From the NCBI RefSeq assembly GCF_900128415.1, contig NZ_LT635772.1, positions 1,178,001-1,242,000 on the forward strand: a DNA stretch of 64,000 nucleotides. The letters run 5' to 3'. The notes below the pieces were generated by a model, which saw nothing but the letters and a program-made list of their open reading frames with translations, was not told the origin of the DNA and made no database searches. Made by a program: the position numbers and the translations under genes. The stretch is from Anaerococcus mediterraneensis. GTDB taxonomy: Bacteria; Bacillota; Clostridia; Tissierellales; Peptoniphilaceae. Shown here piece after piece: positions 47,733 to 60,149 of this stretch (its first letter is position 1; every line of letters starts with the position of its first letter).

Positions 47733-48333
47733 GATTATTTTAGCCATACTAAAAGTTGTTTTCTTTCCTTTTTTTAGAATAAGGGTACACAATAAAGAAA
47801 AACTTCCTAATAGTTCTGATATTATAGTTTGTGCTAATCATTGGTCCAATTTAGATCCTATATTTTTAGGTATCGCCTTACCTTATGAATTTAATTTTAT
47901 GGCAAAAAAAGAGCTTTTTGAAAATGCTTTGCTTAATAAAATTTTGACTGGACTGAATGCTTTCCCTATTGATAGACAATCAAATGACTTAAAGGCTTTA
48001 AGATATTCAATAAAATTGATAAAAGAAGATAAGACATTGGGGATCTTTCCGGAAGGAACAAGGGTTAAATCTATAGACAGGAATAATATGAAAGAGGGGG
48101 TAGCTTTTATAGCTAGTAAGGCAAAGGCAGATATACTCCCTGTAGAAATTGTGACAACTTATAGAATATTTTCCAAAGTTGATATATATGTAAAAGATTT
48201 GATAGCGATCAACCAATATGAAGATTTGAAAAATAAAGAAGCCATGAAAATCATTAGTGATAGAGTGTTTGAAGAAATTTATGATGAGAGATTATCGTTA
48301 GAAAGTAGAGAATATGCAGATATTAATAGCTGA
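47722..48333 (+). CDS. plsC: 1-acyl-sn-glycerol-3-phosphate acyltransferase
   Basis: The 203-residue membrane-associated enzyme converts lysophosphatidic acid to phosphatidic acid. It has an N-terminal hydrophobic segment (about 2-18), the catalytic HxxxxD box NHWSNLD (His40, Asp45) and the acceptor-binding FPEGTR. ATG 47722 is chosen over ATG 47716 because GGAGG (47711-47715) lies directly against the latter but is well spaced for the former. It overlaps cmk and the ispH/S1 gene. Confidence 0.93.
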   Translation: MFYRIILAILKVVFFPFFRIRVHNKEKLPNSSDIIVCANHWSNLDPIFLGIALPYEFNFMAKKELFENALLNKILTGLNAFPIDRQSNDLKALRYSIKLIKEDKTLGIFPEGTRVKSIDRNNMKEGVAFIASKAKADILPVEIVTTYRIFSKVDIYVKDLIAINQYEDLKNKEAMKIISDRVFEEIYDERLSLESREYADINS

Positions 48334-50383
48334 AAATTCTGGATTTTGTTTTGGTGTAAAAAGAAGCGTAGACCTTGCAAAAAAAGCACTAGAGGCTGGC
48401 AAGAAAGCCTATTGCCTGGGCCCTTTGATTCATAATCCACAGTTAGTAGAAGAATTTAGCCGTAAAGGTCTAGAGGTCATTGATCATAAGAATGCACTAG
48501 AAATAAAAGATTCTTTAATTGTCATAAGAGCGCATGGAGAAGATAAAAAGTTCAAGGAACTTCTAAAAGAAAATGGAAATGAACTTTATGATGCGACATG
48601 TCCAGTTCTTAATAACATATATAAAAAAATAAAAGATAAAGAGAATGATGGATATCAAATAATAATTATTGGAGATAAAAGTCATCCAGAAATAATTGCT
48701 ATGGACTCTTTTGTAAATAATGGTATAGTTATTTCAGATGAGACTGAAGCAAAAAATATTAAGAATTATAAAAAGCTATATGTAGTAAGCCAGACTACAA
48801 ATAGACTTGAATATTTCATGAATATTGCTAACAAGTTAGAAGAAAATAATGATAGTGTAGTAATAGAAAACACAATCTGCAATGCAACTAAACTTAGACA
48901 GGATTCTGCAAGAAAATTGGCTAGTCAGGTTGATTGTATGATTGTAGTTGGTGGTTTTAATAGTTCTAATACAAACAAGTTATATAAGGTAGCTAGTTTG
49001 TTTTGTAAAAATGTTTTAAGGATTGAAACTGTTAAAGATCTACCTTTGCAAAAGCTCTCTAAATTTAAAAAAGTAGGAATAATCGCAGGTGCGTCTACGC
49101 CTGATACGATTATCGAGGAGGTAGTAAGTAGTATGGATGAATTCACAAAAGAAGAATTTATGAACAGTCTGGAAAATAGTTTAAGAAAGATTTACCCAAA
49201 AGAGGTAATCACAGGTACAGTTATCAACGTAAAAGATGATGAAGTATTTGTTGACATCCAATATCGCGCAGATGGTATTGTTAAACTAGATGAAATGACT
49301 GAAGAAGAAGCAAATGATCCTAAAAACAGTTTTGAAGTTGGTGAGGATATAGACGTTTACGTTATCAAACTAGATGATGGCGAAGGCAACGTAGCTTTAT
49401 CTACAAGAAGAGTAGAGGGCATGAAAGCTTGGACAGAATTAGCTGAAAAGTTTGAAAACGAAGAATTAGTTCACGGTAAAGTTAATGGATTTAACAAGGG
49501 CGGACTAACTGTTGAAGTTAATGGCGTTAATGGTTTTATACCAGCTAGCCAAATTGCAACATATTTTGTTAAAAATCTTAAAAAATTCGTTGGTGAAGAA
49601 TGGGATCTTAAGATCGTAAGCATCGATGAGAGAAAAAATAGACTTGTTTTATCTAGAAGAGAAGTTCTTGAAGAAGAACTTGATAGCCTATGGGAAGAAC
49701 TAGAAGAAGGTCAAGTAGTTAAAGGTAAAGTGGCTAGACTTACAGACTTTGGTGCTTTTGTAGAAGTTAATGGTCTTGATGGTTTGCTACACGTTTCTGA
49801 TATTGCTTGGACAAGAGTTGAACACCCTTCTGATGTTTTAAACGTTGGCGATGAAATCGAAGTTAAGATATTAAAACTTAATAAAGAGAAGAACAGAATT
49901 TCACTTGGACGTAAACAACTTATAGAAAAACCATTTGAAAGTTTTGCTAACAACCACCAAGTTGGCGATGTTGTAGAAGGAAAGGTAGTAAACCTACTTG
50001 ACTTTGGAGCATTTGTTGAAATAGCAGACGGAGTAGAAGGTTTAGTTCACGTATCTGAGATTTCTTGGGAACACGTAGAAAAACCATCAGATGAACTAAA
50101 CGTTGGTGACAGCGTAGAAGTTAAAATCATCTCTATCGACAAAGAAGAAGAAAAAGTTGGTCTAAGCATAAAGGCTCTTAAAGAAGCTCCAGAGAGACCT
50201 GAAAGAAAGCCAAGAAAACAAGTTAGAAATAACGATAGACCAAGAAGAAAAGTTGAAAGAGAAAACACAAACTCATTCGGTGATGACGATCTAAACAACA
50301 ACCTAGGAGATATGCTTGCACAAGCTTTATCAGAACAAGGTTCTGAAGATCTACTTGGTTCAATCGAAGAAGATGCTGAATAA
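48314..50383 (+). CDS. ispH: Fusion of 4-hydroxy-3-methylbut-2-enyl diphosphate reductase (IspH) and ribosomal protein S1-like domain
   Basis: The 689-residue protein has two parts. Residues 1 to about 280 are IspH, the last MEP-pathway enzyme, with the three [4Fe-4S] cysteines at 12 (GFCFGVKRSV), 96 (DATCPV) and 189 (NTICNAT), histidines 40, 74 and 124, and Glu126. Residues from about 296 carry four S1 RNA-binding repeats (starting near 296, 386, 466 and 551) and a charged tail of about 65 residues. The fusion is known in Clostridia and presumably also serves as ribosomal protein S1. The S1 part has more biased codon use than the IspH part. Confidence 0.96.
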   Translation: MQILIAENSGFCFGVKRSVDLAKKALEAGKKAYCLGPLIHNPQLVEEFSRKGLEVIDHKNALEIKDSLIVIRAHGEDKKFKELLKENGNELYDATCPVLNNIYKKIKDKENDGYQIIIIGDKSHPEIIAMDSFVNNGIVISDETEAKNIKNYKKLYVVSQTTNRLEYFMNIANKLEENNDSVVIENTICNATKLRQDSARKLASQVDCMIVVGGFNSSNTNKLYKVASLFCKNVLRIETVKDLPLQKLSKFKKVGIIAGASTPDTIIEEVVSSMDEFTKEEFMNSLENSLRKIYPKEVITGTVINVKDDEVFVDIQYRADGIVKLDEMTEEEANDPKNSFEVGEDIDVYVIKLDDGEGNVALSTRRVEGMKAWTELAEKFENEELVHGKVNGFNKGGLTVEVNGVNGFIPASQIATYFVKNLKKFVGEEWDLKIVSIDERKNRLVLSRREVLEEELDSLWEELEEGQVVKGKVARLTDFGAFVEVNGLDGLLHVSDIAWTRVEHPSDVLNVGDEIEVKILKLNKEKNRISLGRKQLIEKPFESFANNHQVGDVVEGKVVNLLDFGAFVEIADGVEGLVHVSEISWEHVEKPSDELNVGDSVEVKIISIDKEEEKVGLSIKALKEAPERPERKPRKQVRNNDRPRRKVERENTNSFGDDDLNNNLGDMLAQALSEQGSEDLLGSIEEDAE

Positions 50384-51895: not shown

Positions 51896-52876
51896 ATGAA
51901 AGATGTTTGTGTAAAAGCAAAATCAAAATTATCTAGACTGCTGGATGATGATCTAGTAGAAAATTTGTTAAGAGAAGACGATGTGTATATAAAAATAGAA
52001 TATTTAAAGAATAAATATGAATTTTTATCATCTTGTGGTAAAAAATTAGATGTCGAAAATGCTCTATATAATGACTTTTATAAGCAAATAAAAAGTCTTG
52101 ATTATTTTTTAAGAGACGTAGATAATATATTTTTTCAGAAATATTTCTCGATCTTTAGGATTTATTTGATACAAGAAATCATCACTAGTATTGTAAATGG
52201 ATCATTAGAATCAAATTATTTGAATTTTATAAATAGTCCATTTTTTTATGGACTGGTTCTTAAAGAAAACTATTCAATTAAAGATTTTGTAAGATCAATA
52301 GATGATAACCATATTAGAAGAGTTCTTGAGCCATTCATGAACAAAAATATGGACCAAGAACTTTTGATATTTTTATCATCAAATTCATTGATAAAGTCTT
52401 ATTATAGAGATTTACTCAAGCTAAGTAATAAGTTTTCTAGAGAAGAAAGAAAACTCATAAAAAGATTTATATCTGAAGAAATCAACCTTGAAAATTTTCA
52501 AATGCTTTATAGGCTAAAATCTTTTTTTGAAATCAGCGATGCAGATATTTTTAACTATCTTATTGAGGGTGGATATCTATTTAATGGACAAAGACTTAGA
52601 GAGCTATCTAACCTAAATAAGAATGAATTTTTAGAGTACTTTTCATCAAGTAAATACAAAGATATTTTTAAAGATCAGGATTTGTTTTATAAAAACATAC
52701 AAGATAGAAAAACAAAACTTTACAAAGATGAAATAATCAATGAGAAATCAGATGTTTTGTATTGTATCTCGGCTATAAACCTATTGTATATAGATTTGAA
52801 AAATATTATTTGTATGATTGAGATGGGTGAAAATTATACCTATGAAGATAAGAAAGAATTAGTGATAGGAAGGTAA
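51896..52876 (+). CDS. V-type ATP synthase subunit C (V0 d-type)
   Basis: The 326-residue helical protein matches subunit C/NtpC in size and in its ending NLLYIDLKNIICMIEMG, the family's E/D-x-x-N-[IL]-x-x-[IL] segment near the C-terminus. It links the central stalk to the K ring. An AAGGAGG site precedes ATG 51896; the in-frame upstream TTG at 51878 lies in the promoter. In many operons subunit C is between E and F; here it is first. Assignment rests on pattern and context, as sequence similarity is modest. Confidence 0.8.
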   Translation: MKDVCVKAKSKLSRLLDDDLVENLLREDDVYIKIEYLKNKYEFLSSCGKKLDVENALYNDFYKQIKSLDYFLRDVDNIFFQKYFSIFRIYLIQEIITSIVNGSLESNYLNFINSPFFYGLVLKENYSIKDFVRSIDDNHIRRVLEPFMNKNMDQELLIFLSSNSLIKSYYRDLLKLSNKFSREERKLIKRFISEEINLENFQMLYRLKSFFEISDADIFNYLIEGGYLFNGQRLRELSNLNKNEFLEYFSSSKYKDIFKDQDLFYKNIQDRKTKLYKDEIINEKSDVLYCISAINLLYIDLKNIICMIEMGENYTYEDKKELVIGR

Positions 52877-52878
52877 TT

Positions 52879-53766
52879 ATGGCAGTAGAAAAAATGTACC
52901 TAGTAAATATTATATCAAGGCTAGATAATCTTACAGAGCTGTTAAAAGATGTGATAAATATAGGTCAAATTGAACCAATAGATGCCTTTAATCAAGTGGA
53001 AAGTAGGGCTTTTTCTGTAAAGGCTAGTAGCGAAAATGTTGAGCTGACCGAGGATATGAACAGTATAACAAGTTTTGAAGGATTATCAAAAGATGATTTA
53101 GAAAAGATAAATTATTTGAAAAAATTTTTAAATCTCAATAATGATGATTTTGGTAGGAATTTAAAGAACTTAAATATACTGGATAAAAAAGACCTAGGAA
53201 AGTTTTATGAAAAAATCCAACCAATGATGGAAAAACAAAAAGAGCTCAAAAATAAAAAAGAGATGCTAATGATTTATAAGGAAAACCTTGAAATACTTGA
53301 TAAGGCTAAAATAGATATAGATAAAATTAAAAATCTAAATTATTTTGATTTTAGATATGGAGAAGTGACCAAGGATGGAAGATTCATACTAAAAAATAAT
53401 TATGACAATATTCCTTCTTTGATAATACACTTGGATAATGATGCTCCAGAAAATATTGGGGCTTTAGATGACCTTATAGATTTGGATAAAAAGACAAGTA
53501 TAAGACGTGCTGATGTAGATGATATTATTGATAATGAGAGAAATGAAAGTCTAATTCTAGCAGAAAAGATCGATAAGACATACAATGACAAAATTGTAGA
53601 CAAGGTTAATCAACTAAATAGACAATATGATGCTAATATTAATAATGAATCTATAAAAATAAAGGAAGACTATAGTAAACTAAAATTAAAAATTTCAGAT
53701 ATTTATAATGAGAAGGTAGATTCTCTAATTGATCAGGCACTTGAAAAAATAACGGGGGAGATATAA
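52879..53766 (+). CDS. V-type ATP synthase subunit I, N-terminal fragment with additional helical tail
   Basis: The 295-residue protein begins MAVEKMYLVNIISRLDNL, the usual start of subunit I (NtpI, the a subunit). Residues 1-105 form the first alpha/beta lobe, 108-155 a coiled coil, and 155-190 a strand region with YFDFRYGEV and NIPSLIIHL. Residues about 208-295 are a charged helix ending VDSLIDQALEKITGEI, which does not belong to standard subunit I and resembles the helical form of peripheral-stalk subunit H/G. It stops with TAA directly followed, in the same frame, by the ATG of the membrane half. No separate subunit H gene is present. Confidence 0.75.
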   Translation: MAVEKMYLVNIISRLDNLTELLKDVINIGQIEPIDAFNQVESRAFSVKASSENVELTEDMNSITSFEGLSKDDLEKINYLKKFLNLNNDDFGRNLKNLNILDKKDLGKFYEKIQPMMEKQKELKNKKEMLMIYKENLEILDKAKIDIDKIKNLNYFDFRYGEVTKDGRFILKNNYDNIPSLIIHLDNDAPENIGALDDLIDLDKKTSIRRADVDDIIDNERNESLILAEKIDKTYNDKIVDKVNQLNRQYDANINNESIKIKEDYSKLKLKISDIYNEKVDSLIDQALEKITGEI

Positions 53767-55128
53767 ATGGCAAATAAATTAAATAACTCAAATGAAAACT
53801 ATTTGCTAGTATACCCAAAACAAGTAAATGAAGATATAAAAAGAGCTGTTAATACTATGGGATTTTTAGATAAAGATCTCCCAGAAGAAAGTTTATCATC
53901 TATAGAGAATCAAATAAGAGAAATCGAAAAAGAAATAAAGGACACTGAAATAGAAATAGATAGATTAGAAAAAGAAAATAAAGATATTATCAACGCTTTA
54001 CCAGCTACTATAGATTACTATGAAAAAAGTGAGAAAGTAATAGAAAAGATGGCAAAAGGTGATAAGTATTTATACCTTACAGGCTGGGTTCCAGAATCTA
54101 AGATAGAAGATTTTAAGTCTTTAACCAATAAGTATGATAAGACTTCAGTTAAGGTAAAAAACAAGGCGAATGAACATGTTCCAACCAAGCTTAAAAATAA
54201 TAAATTATTTAGTCCTTTTGAGTTTTTAGTAAATATGTATGGTGCTCCAAATTATAATGAGCTTGATCCGACACCGTTTTTTGCTATAACCTACATGATT
54301 TTATATGGAATGATGTTTGGAGATATTGGCCAAGGTTTGGTCTTTGTTTTATTAAGCTTTTTTGTTGATAAAAGAAATAAAACATTCGGTGCCCTTATTA
54401 GAAGAATCGGGTTTTCTGCATGTTTCTTTGGTTTGATGTATGGTTCAGTATTTGGTATTGAAAACTTAATACCTGCCTTACTGATAAAGCCATTTGATAA
54501 TATAATGAAGGTGTTAATTGCTTCAGTCGCATTTGGAATAGCTTTGTTATTTATATCTTATTGTTTAGGTATCTACAACAAAGTATATAAACAACATAAT
54601 ATTGAGGAAGGTATTTTTGGAAAGGAAGGACTTGCAGGACTAATGATGATGATTTCATTTGTTCTTTTAATATTAAATATTGTAAAAGTAAGTCCTCTTC
54701 CAAAAGAAGTTGGTTTAGTAATTCTAATTATTTCAATTGTAATGATAATTTTTTCAAAACCAATTGCAGCAAAGATCGAAAAAAGAGAAAAAGTATTTGA
54801 ATCAAGTGCCTTTGACTATTATGTAGAAAGCTCGTTTTCAATAATTGAAGCACTTCTTTCGGTGTTTTCAAACCTTGTTTCTTTCACTAGGGTAGGAGCC
54901 TTTGCTATTAACCACGTAGGTTTATATATGGCTTTTGAAGTAATGAGTAAAATAGCTGGTGGTGGAATAAAGGGATTAATTATCTTAATCTTAGGAAATA
55001 TTCTTATCATAGGTCTTGAAGGCATGATAGTGTTTATTCAAGGTTTAAGACTAGAATTTTATGAAATGTTCAGTAAATATTATCAAGGAAATGGTCGTAA
55101 ATTTAGACCAATTAGAGAAAGTAAATAA
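53767..55128 (+). CDS. V-type ATP synthase subunit I, C-terminal (membrane) part
   Basis: The 453-residue protein continues the subunit I architecture: a strand NYLLVYPKQVNEDI, a coiled coil (about 44-75), the family motif TGWVP (105-109), then FEFLVNMYGAPNYNELDPTP and MMFGDIGQG, and about seven membrane segments with SFTRVGAFAINHVG, which contains the Arg needed for proton or Na+ passage. It is therefore functional in appearance. It starts at ATG immediately after the previous TAA, with GGGGGAG upstream, and in the same frame. Whether it is an independent subunit or made by read-through is discussed in the findings. Confidence 0.88.
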   Translation: MANKLNNSNENYLLVYPKQVNEDIKRAVNTMGFLDKDLPEESLSSIENQIREIEKEIKDTEIEIDRLEKENKDIINALPATIDYYEKSEKVIEKMAKGDKYLYLTGWVPESKIEDFKSLTNKYDKTSVKVKNKANEHVPTKLKNNKLFSPFEFLVNMYGAPNYNELDPTPFFAITYMILYGMMFGDIGQGLVFVLLSFFVDKRNKTFGALIRRIGFSACFFGLMYGSVFGIENLIPALLIKPFDNIMKVLIASVAFGIALLFISYCLGIYNKVYKQHNIEEGIFGKEGLAGLMMMISFVLLILNIVKVSPLPKEVGLVILIISIVMIIFSKPIAAKIEKREKVFESSAFDYYVESSFSIIEALLSVFSNLVSFTRVGAFAINHVGLYMAFEVMSKIAGGGIKGLIILILGNILIIGLEGMIVFIQGLRLEFYEMFSKYYQGNGRKFRPIRESK

Positions 55129-55139
55129 AAGGAGATATT

Positions 55140-55571
55140 ATGATTAAATATACAGCAATGCTAGCTTTAGCAGTAGTAATAATAACAATTTATTCAGGTT
55201 TATACCTATTAAAAACCAATGAGGATTCTTCAAAATCTAAAATAAGAAAAGCACTAAAGATAAATTTATTTACCTTTGTGCCTGTTATGATGATGATAGT
55301 TGTACTTATGATACCATCTGGATCAAAAGCAGCAGAAGGTGTAGCAACAGCACAAGCAGCTTCTGATGGTCTTAAATATATAGGTGCAGCCCTTTCTACA
55401 GGTCTTGCAGCTATCGGTACAGGATATGCAGTAGGTACAGTTGGTTCTGCAGCCCTTGGTGCTATTTCTGAAGACCAATCTATCTTGGGTAGGACAATTA
55501 TATTCGTAGGTCTTGCTGAAGGTATAGCTATATTTGGTGTTATCATTTCAATAATGATTCTAAACGCATAA
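55140..55571 (+). CDS. V-type ATP synthase subunit K (rotor ring)
   Basis: The 143-residue membrane protein has an N-terminal hydrophobic part (about 5-23 and 43-60) followed by the conserved hairpin: KYIGAALSTGLAAIGTGYAV and FVGLAEGIAIFGVIISIMI with the ion-binding Glu127. It forms the ion-carrying ring. Only the second hairpin carries the usual carboxylate and Gly-rich motif. Codon use is biased, as expected for a multi-copy subunit. An AAGGAG site lies before the ATG. Confidence 0.92.
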   Translation: MIKYTAMLALAVVIITIYSGLYLLKTNEDSSKSKIRKALKINLFTFVPVMMMIVVLMIPSGSKAAEGVATAQAASDGLKYIGAALSTGLAAIGTGYAVGTVGSAALGAISEDQSILGRTIIFVGLAEGIAIFGVIISIMILNA

Positions 55572-55572
55572 A

Positions 55573-55809
55573 ATGAAAGCTAAGATTTTAACAGATTCAA
55601 ACAGCTTGTTAACGATGTTTAGACTTGGTGCAATTGAAGGTGAATTAATATCTGATAATAATTTTGAAAATACTTTTGATAAATCGGTCAATGACGAAAG
55701 TATGGCCATTTTGATAATAACTAAGTCTGTTTACATGAGAAATAATATCAAAATTGATGATTTTAGAAAAGAAAATTCTGAACCTTTGATTGTAATCATT
55801 GATGGTTGA
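55573..55809 (+). CDS. V-type ATP synthase subunit F (short)
   Basis: The 78-residue protein has the subunit F pattern: an N-terminal strand, FRLGAIEGELI (the GFRLAG-like motif), MAILIITKSVY and a final PLIVIIDG. Usual subunit F has about 100 residues with a further C-terminal helix that enters the A3B3 head; this helix is missing here. The ATG follows one base after the K stop, and E follows after 11 bases. Function as subunit F is inferred from pattern and location. Confidence 0.8.
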   Translation: MKAKILTDSNSLLTMFRLGAIEGELISDNNFENTFDKSVNDESMAILIITKSVYMRNNIKIDDFRKENSEPLIVIIDG

Positions 55810-55820
55810 AAGGATGAAAT

Positions 55821-56426
55821 ATGCTAGATATAGAAGCTAAATTATCGAGCTTTAGAAAAATGATCTGGGATGAAGAGAAAGAGAAAACCGATGAGGAATT
55901 ATTTTCATCAACAGAGAGAAATTCATCTTTTCTAGATGAGAAAAAAACTAAAAGAGAAGAAGAATTTCAAGCAAAGATTAAGGAAAGAGAAAACTTTCTA
56001 GAGCTTAGAAAAAATGAAGAAATTTCACGAATAAAAGAAGAAGAAAAAAATAATTATTATGCCTATAAAGAGGCATTACTAAATGACTTTTATAATAAAC
56101 TTGTATTAAAACTCAAAGATTATAAAAAAAGTTCAGCCTATAAGGAAAAGTTGTCATCAGAAATAAAAAAAATAGTTAATGAACTGAATTTAGATGAGGA
56201 TAAGATAATTTTTTGTCTAGTAGAAGATGACATTAATATAGTTAATTATAAAAATAAAGAAGTAATAGATAATTCTTATATAGGTGGGGTTATACTTAAA
56301 GATATAAATAATGAATTTAGATATAACTTCACTTATAGGGAGAAAATCAGAGAAAGCAAATATGAATTTGGTAAAAAAATCTACCAAATTTTTGAAAGAG
56401 AGAGTTTTAATGAATCCAATAATTAA
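55821..56426 (+). CDS. V-type ATP synthase subunit E
   Basis: The 201-residue peripheral-stalk protein has a long charged N-terminal helix (about 1-95, coiled-coil-like) and a C-terminal alpha/beta domain with IGGVILKDINNEFRYNFTY, the subunit E hallmark (GGVxLxxxxGxIxxxNTxxxR). It normally pairs with subunit H/G, which is not encoded separately here. Its 3' end overlaps the A-subunit gene by 17 bases. Confidence 0.9.
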   Translation: MLDIEAKLSSFRKMIWDEEKEKTDEELFSSTERNSSFLDEKKTKREEEFQAKIKERENFLELRKNEEISRIKEEEKNNYYAYKEALLNDFYNKLVLKLKDYKKSSAYKEKLSSEIKKIVNELNLDEDKIIFCLVEDDINIVNYKNKEVIDNSYIGGVILKDINNEFRYNFTYREKIRESKYEFGKKIYQIFERESFNESNN

Positions 56427-58152
56427 AACAATTAATGGACCTGTAGTTCATGCTAAGAATGCAAGAAATCTTAAAATTAGAGAGATGGTATCAGTTGGAA
56501 AGAAAAAACTTATTGGCGAAGTTATATCAGTCGATGGAGATATAGCTACAATCCAAGTTTATGAAGATACCTCTGGTCTTAAAGCAAGTGAAGAGATTAT
56601 ACCTACAGGCATGCCACTATCAGTAAGACTGGGACCTGGTTTATTGGGTAATATGTTTGATGGTATTGAAAGGCCTTTAAAATCTATAATGGACAAATAC
56701 GGGGCATTTATTCCATCAGGTATTGGTTTTGATAACCTTGATCTAGAAAAACAATGGGATGTTAGAATAAAATTTAAAACTGGTGATCATATAGAGAAAT
56801 CTGATATATATGCGTGTATAAAAGAGACTGAAGTTATAGAGCACAGGCTTATGAGTAGTTTTTCTGGTGAGATAATAGAAGCAAAAGAAGATGGAAAATA
56901 CAGGTTAGAGGATACGATTTTGAAGGTCAAAAATGATGAGGGTGTTTTTGACTTAAAATTATATCAATATTGGCCAGTTAGAAATCCAAGACCAGTTAAA
57001 AAGACTTTGGGTCTAAAAAATCTTTTGGTAACTGGCCAAAGGGTATTGGATGTATTTTTTCCAATAGCTAAGGGTGGTACAGTTGCTATACCAGGTGGAT
57101 TTGGTACGGGAAAAACCATGCTTCAACACCAATTAGCTCAGTATTCTGATGTAGATATAATTGTTTATATAGGATGCGGTGAAAGAGGTAACGAAATGAC
57201 TCAAGTTCTTGAGGAATTTCCAGAGCTAATAGACCCAAATACTGGCAAGGATTTGATGCAAAGAACTATACTTATAGCTAACACATCGAATATGCCAGTA
57301 GCAGCTAGGGAAGCTAGTATCTATACGGGTATAACTATAGCTGAATACTATAAGGATATGGGATATGATGTAGCCCTCATGGCCGACTCCAGCTCTAGAT
57401 GGGCAGAAGCCCTTAGGGAAATATCTGCTAGGCTAGAAGAAATCCCAGCAGAGGAAGGATATCCAGCATACCTAGCTAGTAGACTATCAAAGTTTTATGA
57501 GAGGGCTGGATATTTTGAAAATCTAAATGGAACTAAGGGATCAGTCACCCTTATAGGAGCAGTATCTCCTTCCGGTGGAGATTTTTCTGAGCCTGTGACA
57601 GAAGCCACAAGGAGAAGTGTAAATGTATTTCTAGGATTGGATAGGAAATTAGCTTATTCTAGACATTATCCTGCTATAAACTGGTTGACATCATATACAA
57701 ATTATCTAGACAAGATACAAAATTTTTATAAAGAGTCTTATAATTCGGATATTATTTCAATCAGAAATGACCTTATGAATGTTTTGATAGAAGAAGATGA
57801 AGTTAAATCAATAATGATGCTTGTAGGAAGCGATGCCTTATCTGATGAACAAAAAAATATTCTTGATGTAGCTAGTCTAATCAGAAATGGATTTTTACAA
57901 CAAAATGCCTACAATGATATTGATAAGTATGTACCAATAGAAAAACAAATTATGATGTTAGAAGTCATAAATAAATACTACAATCTCAGCAAGGATGCTA
58001 TAGATAAGGAAATATCTTATAAAGATATTTATGATCCAGACTTATTAAATGATATAAGCCAGATGAAATATAATATCGAAAATGACAAATTAGAAAAGCT
58101 TAACAAGCTAAGCTCTAAAGTTGAAAATTATTTTGCTAATTTAAGGAGGTAA
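56410..58152 (+). CDS. atpA: V-type ATP synthase subunit A (catalytic)
   Basis: With ATG 56410 the protein has 580 residues. It starts [18 protein letters not shown], the usual N-terminal barrel. Walker A is GGFGTGKT (229-236), followed by [14 protein letters not shown] (catalytic Glu), [15 protein letters not shown] and [18 protein letters not shown], all subunit A hallmarks. It hydrolyses or makes ATP. Upstream in-frame ATGs lie within subunit E and give non-homologous residues. GAGAG precedes the ATG. Confidence 0.97.
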
Positions 58153-58156
58153 GCTG

Positions 58157-59530
58157 TTGAGAAAAGAATATACAAAGATTAAAAAAATTGAATCTTCTAT
58201 TATAGAAATTGAAAAGGTTGAAGATGTTGCATACAATGCTTTGGTATCTGTTCATGCTTCAGGTATGGATTTTGTTGGATCTGTTGTAATGATAGATGAA
58301 GACACAATAACAATAGAGGTATATGCTAATACAGATACTTTTTCACTTGATGATATAGTAGTTAGTTTTTATGAAAAGCCTCTAGAGCTTGCCTTAAATG
58401 AAAAAATCTTGGGCAGGACCTTTAACGGGATCGGCCAACCTATAGATAGGGGTGGAGAGATCTACTCAGATGAAACTTACCCAGTTGAAGGCTTAGCTCT
58501 TAATCCTGTTGCAAGAGAATATCCAAGAGATTTTATTCAAACAGGAATATCTGCTATAGATACTCTTACAACCCTGATCCGTGGTCAAAAATTGCCAATA
58601 TTTTCAGGTTCTGGCATGCCACATAATGAAATTGCTGCACAAATTATAAGACAAGCTAAATTGAAGTCTGACGAAAACTTTGCCTTTGTCTTTGCGGCTA
58701 TGGGTATTAAAAAAGATGAAGCTATGTTTTTTGAAGATGCTTTCTCTAAAGCAGGTGTCAAAGATAAGCTGGTCATGTACCAAAATTTAGCCGATTCACC
58801 AATTATGGAGCGACTTCTAGCTCCTAAATGTGCCCTTACAGCAGCAGAATATTTGTCATATAAAAAAGGCTATCATGTATTGGTAATAATGACAGATATA
58901 ACCAGCTATTGTGAGGCCCTTAGAGAGGTTTCATCTATAAGAGGAGAAATACCATCTAGAAAGGGATATCCAGGATATCTTTATTCAAATCTTGCCAGCC
59001 TTTATGAGAGGGCAGGCATGATAGAAGGAGTTAAAGGATCTGTAACCTTGATCCCTATTTTAACAATGCCAAATGATGATATAACCCATCCAGTTGCTGA
59101 CCTTACAGGTTATATAACTGAGGGACAAATTGTTGTTGATAGGTCTCTTTCAAACAGGGGGATATATCCGCCAATAAATATTTTGCCATCCTTATCCAGA
59201 CTTATGAAGGATGGTATTGGTGAGGGATTTACAAGGTCAGACCATGAAGATTTAATGAATCAGCTTTATGAATCATATGCTAAGGTTATTGATGTTAGGA
59301 ATATAGCTCAGATTGTCGGTGAGGATGATTTATCAGAAACAGATAAAAAGTATCTTGAATTTGGTATAATTTTTGAAGAAAAGTTTTTATCACAAAAACA
59401 AAATGAAAATAGAGAATTAGAAAAAAGTTTAGACTTAGGCTGGGATATACTAAATATATTGCCACGTAATGAACTTCACAGGGTTTCAAAAGAAAATCTT
59501 GATAAATTCATAGGAAAAGAAAATGAATAA
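58157..59530 (+). CDS. atpB: V-type ATP synthase subunit B (regulatory)
   Basis: The 457-residue non-catalytic partner of A lacks a Walker A loop, having [17 protein letters not shown] at that place, the usual B-subunit replacement. Other hallmarks are [49 protein letters not shown] and [21 protein letters not shown]. Translation starts at TTG after an AAGGAGG site. It overlaps subunit D by eight bases. Confidence 0.97.
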
Positions 59531-60149
59531 TGATGCTATAGCAAGTAAGGCAAATCTAATTAAAGCTAAAGAAGAATTAAATCTTTTGAAAGTTGGTCTA
59601 GATATATTGGACAAAAAAAGAAAGGCTTTGATTAATGAGCGTGACAGCAGGATAGGCGAAAGAGATTTGCTAAACAAGAAAGTAAATAAAACTATGGGAG
59701 AAGTATCTCATAGCTTTAACAAGGCTATGGCAAGTCTAGGTCAAGCTAAGTTAGAAAATCTTGCAGATCTTATACCTATAGATCATTCTATAGAAATAGA
59801 AACATATAGGTTTATGCAAACAGATATGTCAAAACTTAGCTTTAAAGAAAGAAAGTTATCCCTTTCATATTCATTTTATCAAACAAATTCTTTGTTTGAT
59901 GAAGCCTTGCTTATGTTTAATAAATTAAGAGCTGATATATTTAAGCTTGCTGAGCTTGATAATATCATAAATAATTTGGAAATTCAAATCAGGAAGTCCA
60001 ATAAAAAAGTAAATTCTTTGGAGAAAATCCAAATTCCACAAAAATCAGATCTTATAAAAAATATTTCCCAAAGTATAGAGGAAAAAGAAAGAGAAGAATT
60101 TTCAAAGACAAAAATTGTAAAGAAAAATAAAGCAAAAAAATCATCGTGA
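59523..60149 (+). CDS. V-type ATP synthase subunit D (central stalk)
   Basis: The 208-residue helical protein forms the rotary axle. It has the subunit D N-terminus ([30 protein letters not shown] region, long antiparallel coiled coils at both ends) and a Lys-rich tail. The typical position at the end of A-B-D is kept. Its stop codon lies within the terminator stem. Confidence 0.93.

Follow-up and report, generated by a model that had tools for sequence, protein, structure and literature searches.

Subunit G very probably fused into a split subunit I gene in the V-ATPase operon of Anaerococcus

In the V-type ATPases (V-ATPases) of Enterococcus hirae (NtpI, 8wci_P) and Thermus thermophilus (6qum_N), subunit I/a is a single polypeptide. 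For the latter enzyme, the available portions of two reports (PMC5758568, PMC7367684) describe two EG stalks per one subunit I and a flexible, poorly resolved joint of the I/a arm with these stalks, the distal stalk meeting the arm at a different angle in the absence of V1. Fusions of stalk proteins are known from F-type enzymes, with a delta/b fusion of the F-ATP synthase in Gordonia and some mycobacteria and a b-delta fusion in some N-ATPases (PMC5709465, PMC11738941, in their available portions). Here, the V-ATPase operon of Anaerococcus mediterraneensis is described, located at 51.9-60.1 kb of a 64,000-nucleotide stretch of DNA (contig NZ_LT635772.1, positions 1,178,001-1,242,000 of a 2.08-Mb single-contig genome), this whole stretch being termed the window. 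Its subunit I is encoded as two polypeptides, I_N and I_C, with the break between them inside the arm's distal lobe and subunit G carried on the first; in both sequence and fold, the two span the whole of the E. hirae and T. thermophilus subunits. It is highly probable that subunit G has been fused into the subunit I gene, that the stop between the two open reading frames (ORFs) is the end of the fused protein I_N-G, and that I_N and I_C rebuild the arm with G joining it to V1. No closer precedents were found than the delta/b fusions of F- and N-type enzymes, which likewise join peripheral-stalk subunits that are separate elsewhere. However, they join two stalk proteins, whereas in Anaerococcus G is inserted in a membrane-anchored stator subunit, splitting it. 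Neither a G-I fusion nor a split bacterial subunit I was reported among the literature matches listed, as far as these extend, subscription papers and preprints lying mostly outside that search. The features of the gene pair in the window are as follows.

52879..53766, + strand: fused protein I_N-G, 295 amino acids (aa) (ORF, profile comparisons, genome-wide profile search)
52879..53433, + strand: I_N, N-terminal half of the cytosolic arm of subunit I, residues 1 to ~185 (profile match to ordinary subunit I; structure model)
53455..53763, + strand: putative complete peripheral-stalk subunit G, residues ~193-295 (hhalign, controls, genome-wide profile search, structure model)
53754..53760, + strand: GGGGGAG, likely ribosome-binding site of the second ORF, within the end of the first (sequence)
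53764..53766, + strand: TAA stop, the probable C-terminus of G (sequence)
53767..55128, + strand: I_C, 453 aa, second arm half (about residues 10-135) and membrane domain (Pfam V_ATPase_I 98.4 bits; structure model)

A first-pass annotation of this DNA had reported that the 295-aa and 453-aa ORFs adjoin in frame and together cover subunit I. Both statements were confirmed, with the ATG at 53767 following the TAA without a gap and GGGGGAG lying just upstream, and with I_C identified by Pfam and I_N by a profile of 31 members. Absent from that annotation was the finding that the C-terminal stretch of ~100 residues in the first ORF corresponds to subunit G, the stop lying at 53764-53766 because G ends there. 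I_C scored far above the cut-off of Pfam V_ATPase_I (PF01496, 30.7 bits), and the first ORF alone gave no significant Pfam match. The I_N profile was aligned using hhalign with the N-terminal half of 25 full subunit I proteins (99.9%, E 7.8e-33). Compared to ordinary subunit I (about 645-670 aa), the 295-aa protein matches from residue 1 to about 190 in most relatives, with the match continuing weakly to about 280 in some, and its tail of ~100 residues is conserved in the genus without a counterpart at that place in ordinary subunit I.

Ordinary subunit I reads '...NILAVILHTG', a short turn and then 'EVYLVLYP...', while in the split form I_N reads '...NIPSLIIHLD', followed by the ~100 residues and the stop, with I_C restarting with 'ENYLLVYP...'. 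On E. hirae NtpI the cut corresponds to about residues 188-196 (counted on the alignment), and profile position 190 corresponds to residue 183 of the Meiothermus ruber arm (3rrk). The cut sits in the distal lobe of the arm, at a turn between two strands; it was placed there from the contacts of the T. thermophilus distal subdomain at 144 and 196-201 and the coiled-coil kinks at 119 and 246, as given in the available portion of PMC7367684. The proposal that the halves are separate proteins is thus upheld as to two conserved proteins, but not as to a border between arm and membrane half, and the 453-aa ORF is not the membrane part alone, as the second half of the cytosolic arm is also present in I_C. 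In the structure model, I_N consists of half of the proximal lobe, one coiled-coil helix and half of the distal lobe (assigned by comparison with subunit I), and G of two near-continuous helices (193-250 and 254-287).

A profile of 26 stand-alone G proteins matched the 31 whole I_N-G proteins at 98.9% in hhalign (E 3.5e-17) and the tails alone at 99.3%, with eleven controls (subunits E and D, coiled-coil parts of subunit I, the I_N head, and reversed and column-shuffled tails) reaching 0.1 to 10.3%. The possibility of the tail being a generic coiled coil was rejected, the control sequences giving no comparable match to G. When the 64-kb window was searched with the G profile, the tail was the only convincing match (E 4.9e-7), the next of the 417 segments being at 0.0085. 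In operons read outside the clade carrying the fusion, where subunit I is uninterrupted, G is a separate gene. A small gene was found directly upstream of subunit C in 27 of the 28 such operons, the contig of the 28th ending inside C, and it encodes 96-118 aa in most relatives, with longer open frames in a few. These small proteins align with the I_N tails from first methionine to last helix (39 sequences). No stand-alone G gene was found upstream of C in the nine fusion-clade loci with upstream sequence, an ORF of 189-355 aa preceding C instead, nor ahead of C in the window, where the preceding ORF is presumably miaB-like. Subunit G is displaced from its usual place as first gene of the operon into the subunit I gene, a state conserved in one clade.

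Family names were assigned weakly. At E<=1, NCBIfam named V-type ATP synthase subunit H for nine of the 39 sequences and V-type ATPase subunit G for six, and Pfam V-ATPase_G was matched by seven of the 31 I_N proteins and four of the 26 stand-alone G proteins (best E 0.0071), alongside unrelated families ranking similarly or lower. The Pfam model does not resolve this G lineage, as only these 4/26 stand-alone proteins match it. The identification as G is a sequence-based one, drawn from operon position, profile homology within the order and the weak family names, not from solved structures. Like fused G, stand-alone subunit G (archaeal H) is about 100 aa, helical and homologous from end to end; unlike the free stand-alone protein, fused G is joined at its N-terminus to the subunit I distal lobe.

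When 130 genomes of the family were searched in six frames with the I_N-G profile, 87 gave matches and 43 gave none. The fused protein was identified in 33, comprising all 31 of the genus Anaerococcus and two of a second genus. A G match in a separate frame (103-191 aa, E 1.8e-11 to 2.2e-6) was found in 44, of which 42 also matched I_N separately, and nine had a subunit I match alone. Genome G040, with a contig that ends inside I_N, was counted apart and not scored; no convincing stand-alone G was found near its subunit C, which is preceded by an ORF that we take to be miaB-like. No further stand-alone G was found in any fused genome among the candidates scored. One genome (G014) has a draft frameshift, its second profile match being its own frameshifted tail, and in another (G001) a TAG lies between both ORFs, although the search output gave a 770-aa frame. 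The collection of named genomes held 25 Anaerococcus loci and two Peptoniphilaceae metagenome-assembled genomes, one of them cut inside I_N. Among 391 genomes of the class searched at E<=1e-25, 13 matches were obtained, with the fusion only in three of Anaerococcus; most genomes were blank at this threshold, which rarer or more diverged fusions could escape.

Close relatives with an uninterrupted gene had been named in the first-pass annotation as counting against its reading. All genus genomes searched are split, with a separate I_N ORF in 31/31 and a stop between the halves in each, and at this gene subunit I as one continuous polypeptide was found only outside the clade. The split subunit I proteins formed one group in a tree (support 100/99), as did the 16 fused G sequences tested (99/93), both trees being unrooted and, as sequence comparisons, consistent with a single origin of the fusion. 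In the tree of the membrane part of subunit I, which leaves out L111 as well as L078, L085 and L086 (full subunit I, anchor motif not found), the rows nearest to the window were Anaerococcus degeneri and A. lactolyticus. The ratio of non-synonymous to synonymous changes (pN/pS), pooled over thirteen close pairs, was 0.13 for I_N and 0.18 for G, which suggests purifying selection on both.

The anatomy described above is well supported, and the mechanism is one that we infer. Beyond gene content, homology, distribution and selection, which are observed, I_N and I_C would reassemble and G would pair with subunit E, as judged from the sequences. I_N and I_C would fold together without a covalent link, restoring the arm, and the helix of G would start next to the distal lobe, at its N-terminus, and run up beside subunit E to end at V1 with its C-terminus. 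Arm and peripheral stalk would become one polypeptide, a peptide bond taking the place of a joint formed non-covalently elsewhere. The far end of G (a ~95-residue helix) would lie at V1, roughly 100 Å or more from where subunit I must resume, and subunit I could continue only as a second chain because the inserted G ends so far away. With G inserted at the distal turn, a stop and a restart would follow.

Several observations weigh against this interpretation. The tail of the window itself has no V-ATPase_G hit in Pfam and no NCBIfam hit, and it is the lowest-scoring complete tail of those scored (25.4 bits), its identity as G being taken from its alignment with sister tails. The best fused member reached 23.9 bits against the Pfam V-ATPase_G (PF03179) cut-off of 28.6. 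Sec23_helical was matched in 7/31 I_N proteins (best 0.0053), and for stand-alone G several unrelated families equal V-ATPase_G at 4/26. In PDB sequence searches with the window protein and the G and tail profiles, generic helical proteins or unrelated ones ranked ahead of V-ATPase G or appeared in its stead; one profile search placed unrelated helical proteins above V-ATPase G1 (E 3.5) and another listed no V-ATPase G. The hhalign alignment of full subunit I with I_N continues weakly to residue 280, and in some full subunit I genes the profile match extends past 190, as far as 284, as is usual for coiled coils. One close pair has a G pN/pS of 1.18, from very few synonymous changes. The structure model was built with both halves as one chain, the stop being read through, and had a predicted template modelling score (pTM) of 0.58. 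By analogy with T. thermophilus, two stalks would need two I_N-G chains, whereas the window encodes one arm only. Finally, a G-like gene in a second V-ATPase operon makes supply of G in trans possible. This operon, in the order G, I, K, E, C, F, A, B, D, has its G, K, E and C labelled from gene size and gene order, and G in addition from a Pfam match below threshold. It is located as follows.

L065:3963-12357 (genome 632,462-640,856): second V-ATPase operon of the window's genome, with a 641-aa uninterrupted subunit I preceded by a 107-aa G-like gene

According to one alternative, which is unlikely, the tail would be an unrelated coiled-coil extension of I_N and G would be taken from the second operon. 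This would suit the 107-aa gene, which matches V-ATPase_G_2 with 20.4 bits (below cut-off), the presence of a second subunit I in all 31 genus genomes, and the low score of the window tail (about 25 bits). However, the tail matches the G of the same operon type from end to end with all eleven controls far below, the candidates scored in fused genomes included no further stand-alone G, and the second-operon G reached only 6.5 bits against the present G profile.

Read-through of the stop, giving a full-length subunit I, had been offered in the first-pass annotation as the alternative to two separate proteins. The two window ORFs are indeed in frame and abutting, and of the second starts in 32 fusion-clade loci 21 are in frame; however, nine are out of frame (one in a frameshifted draft) and two are out-of-frame overlaps, and with 11/32 second ORFs out of frame read-through has very little probability. 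The out-of-frame loci include A. lactolyticus, a close relative of the window organism, and some second ORFs are preceded by strong ribosome sites of their own, such as AGGAGG in the A. vaginalis group. In a read-through chain, moreover, G would be anchored in the distal lobe at its far end as well. Candidate second start codons are ATG, TTG and GTG, and the spacers between the ORFs are 0-102 nucleotides in length (excluding the frameshifted draft and the overlaps). In these loci, the conserved feature is two ORFs rather than one chain.

That the gene is a pseudogene, a subunit I gene in decay, would be in keeping with a second, uninterrupted subunit I gene in the genome, but is hardly credible given the same split in the 31 genus genomes searched, the low pooled pN/pS in I_N and G and the presence of all other operon subunits as open genes; here the first-pass annotation, which had argued against decay, was borne out. 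A sequencing or assembly error at the stop codon can be dismissed for practical purposes: a single genome was read here and in two draft relatives the frame is broken at a run of A at another place in I_C, but named Anaerococcus genomes that were sequenced separately show the split too, and their spacers and candidate start codons differ.

The two drafts just mentioned, G030 and G009 (A. obesiensis and A. senegalensis), have I_C broken at a nine-A run between the arm half and the membrane domain, due to either draft homopolymer error or slippage; the second locus listed also has a split subunit E.

L073:3300-3354: nine-A run break in I_C (sequence of draft)
L074:3340-3394: nine-A run break in I_C (sequence of draft)

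Duplicated arms were identified in some relatives. In nine of the 31 genus genomes the second ORF spans 611-693 aa (open frame) and holds the arm half of I_C in tandem duplicate before the membrane domain. The seven duplicated-arm proteins entered in a tree formed one group (100/100), and copy 1 was less conserved between species than copy 2 (mean identity 42% vs 59%, compared for four of the seven). Three genomes of another family of the order (G075, G105, G116) have a 344-aa membrane-less arm copy directly upstream of a full subunit I. Like Anaerococcus, they depart from one arm per operon, but their G is stand-alone and their subunit I unsplit, possibly representing a separate two-armed V-ATPase.

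L066:2832-4895: tandem arm-half ORF
L067:2690-4753: tandem arm-half ORF
L068:2915-4792: tandem arm-half ORF
L069:6297-8186: tandem arm-half ORF
L070:2837-4669: tandem arm-half ORF
L080:3964-4998: 344-aa soluble arm copy
L081:2703-3737: 344-aa soluble arm copy
L082:8905-9939: 344-aa soluble arm copy

The duplicated arm halves could give each I_N its own partner. We tentatively suggest, as a possible but doubtful arrangement, two I_N-G chains per enzyme serving as arm-stalk modules (I_N-G with E), with two complete arms, one for each stalk, on a single membrane domain in the octavius group, whose second ORF has the tandem arm halves. If this were true, the pump of that group would be a rotary ATPase whose stator is doubled and covalently continuous. 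Alternatively, the enzyme might have a single stalk, one I_N might be unpaired, or G might come from the second operon.

The remaining genes of the window operon, which has the order C, I_N-G, I_C, K, F, E, A, B, D, are given below. Pfam identified all genes except the first ORF of the fused pair, with subunit E slightly below its cut-off, and the latter matches the E of relatives from end to end. The full set A, B, C, D, E, F, G, I and K is encoded, G solely as the fused tail.

51908..52876, + strand: subunit C (AC39 family), first operon gene (Pfam vATP-synt_AC39 77.6 bits)
55140..55571, + strand: subunit K (proteolipid), 143 aa (Pfam ATP-synt_C 58.4 bits)
55573..55809, + strand: subunit F, short, 78 aa (Pfam ATP-synt_F 35.3 bits)
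55821..56426, + strand: subunit E, expected stalk partner of G (Pfam vATP-synt_E 21.7 bits, cut-off 24.2)
56410..58152, + strand: subunit A, catalytic (Pfam)
58157..59530, + strand: subunit B (Pfam)
59523..60149, + strand: subunit D (Pfam ATP-synt_D 120.4 bits)

Subunit K has a single ATP-synt_C repeat (81-140), its N-terminal half being without significant Pfam match. The matching part of subunit F measures 78-80 aa in the remaining operons read from the fusion clade, compared to 95-109 aa in most outside relatives. Elsewhere in the window, a 689-aa ORF (48314-50383) resembles, by eye, what we presume to be IspH fused to S1-type repeats.

Sources that name I_N-G use 'hypothetical protein' or 'V-type ATP synthase subunit I domain-containing protein', and these operons therefore seem to lack G and to carry a truncated subunit I. 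In Anaerococcus, at least one joint between arm and stalk is now apparently a peptide bond, the arm having been cut in two for it. This would constitute a natural experiment on how far stator elasticity and assembly depend on the arm-stalk joint, on the ability of V1 and Vo to come apart, and on the way in which two stalks are provided.
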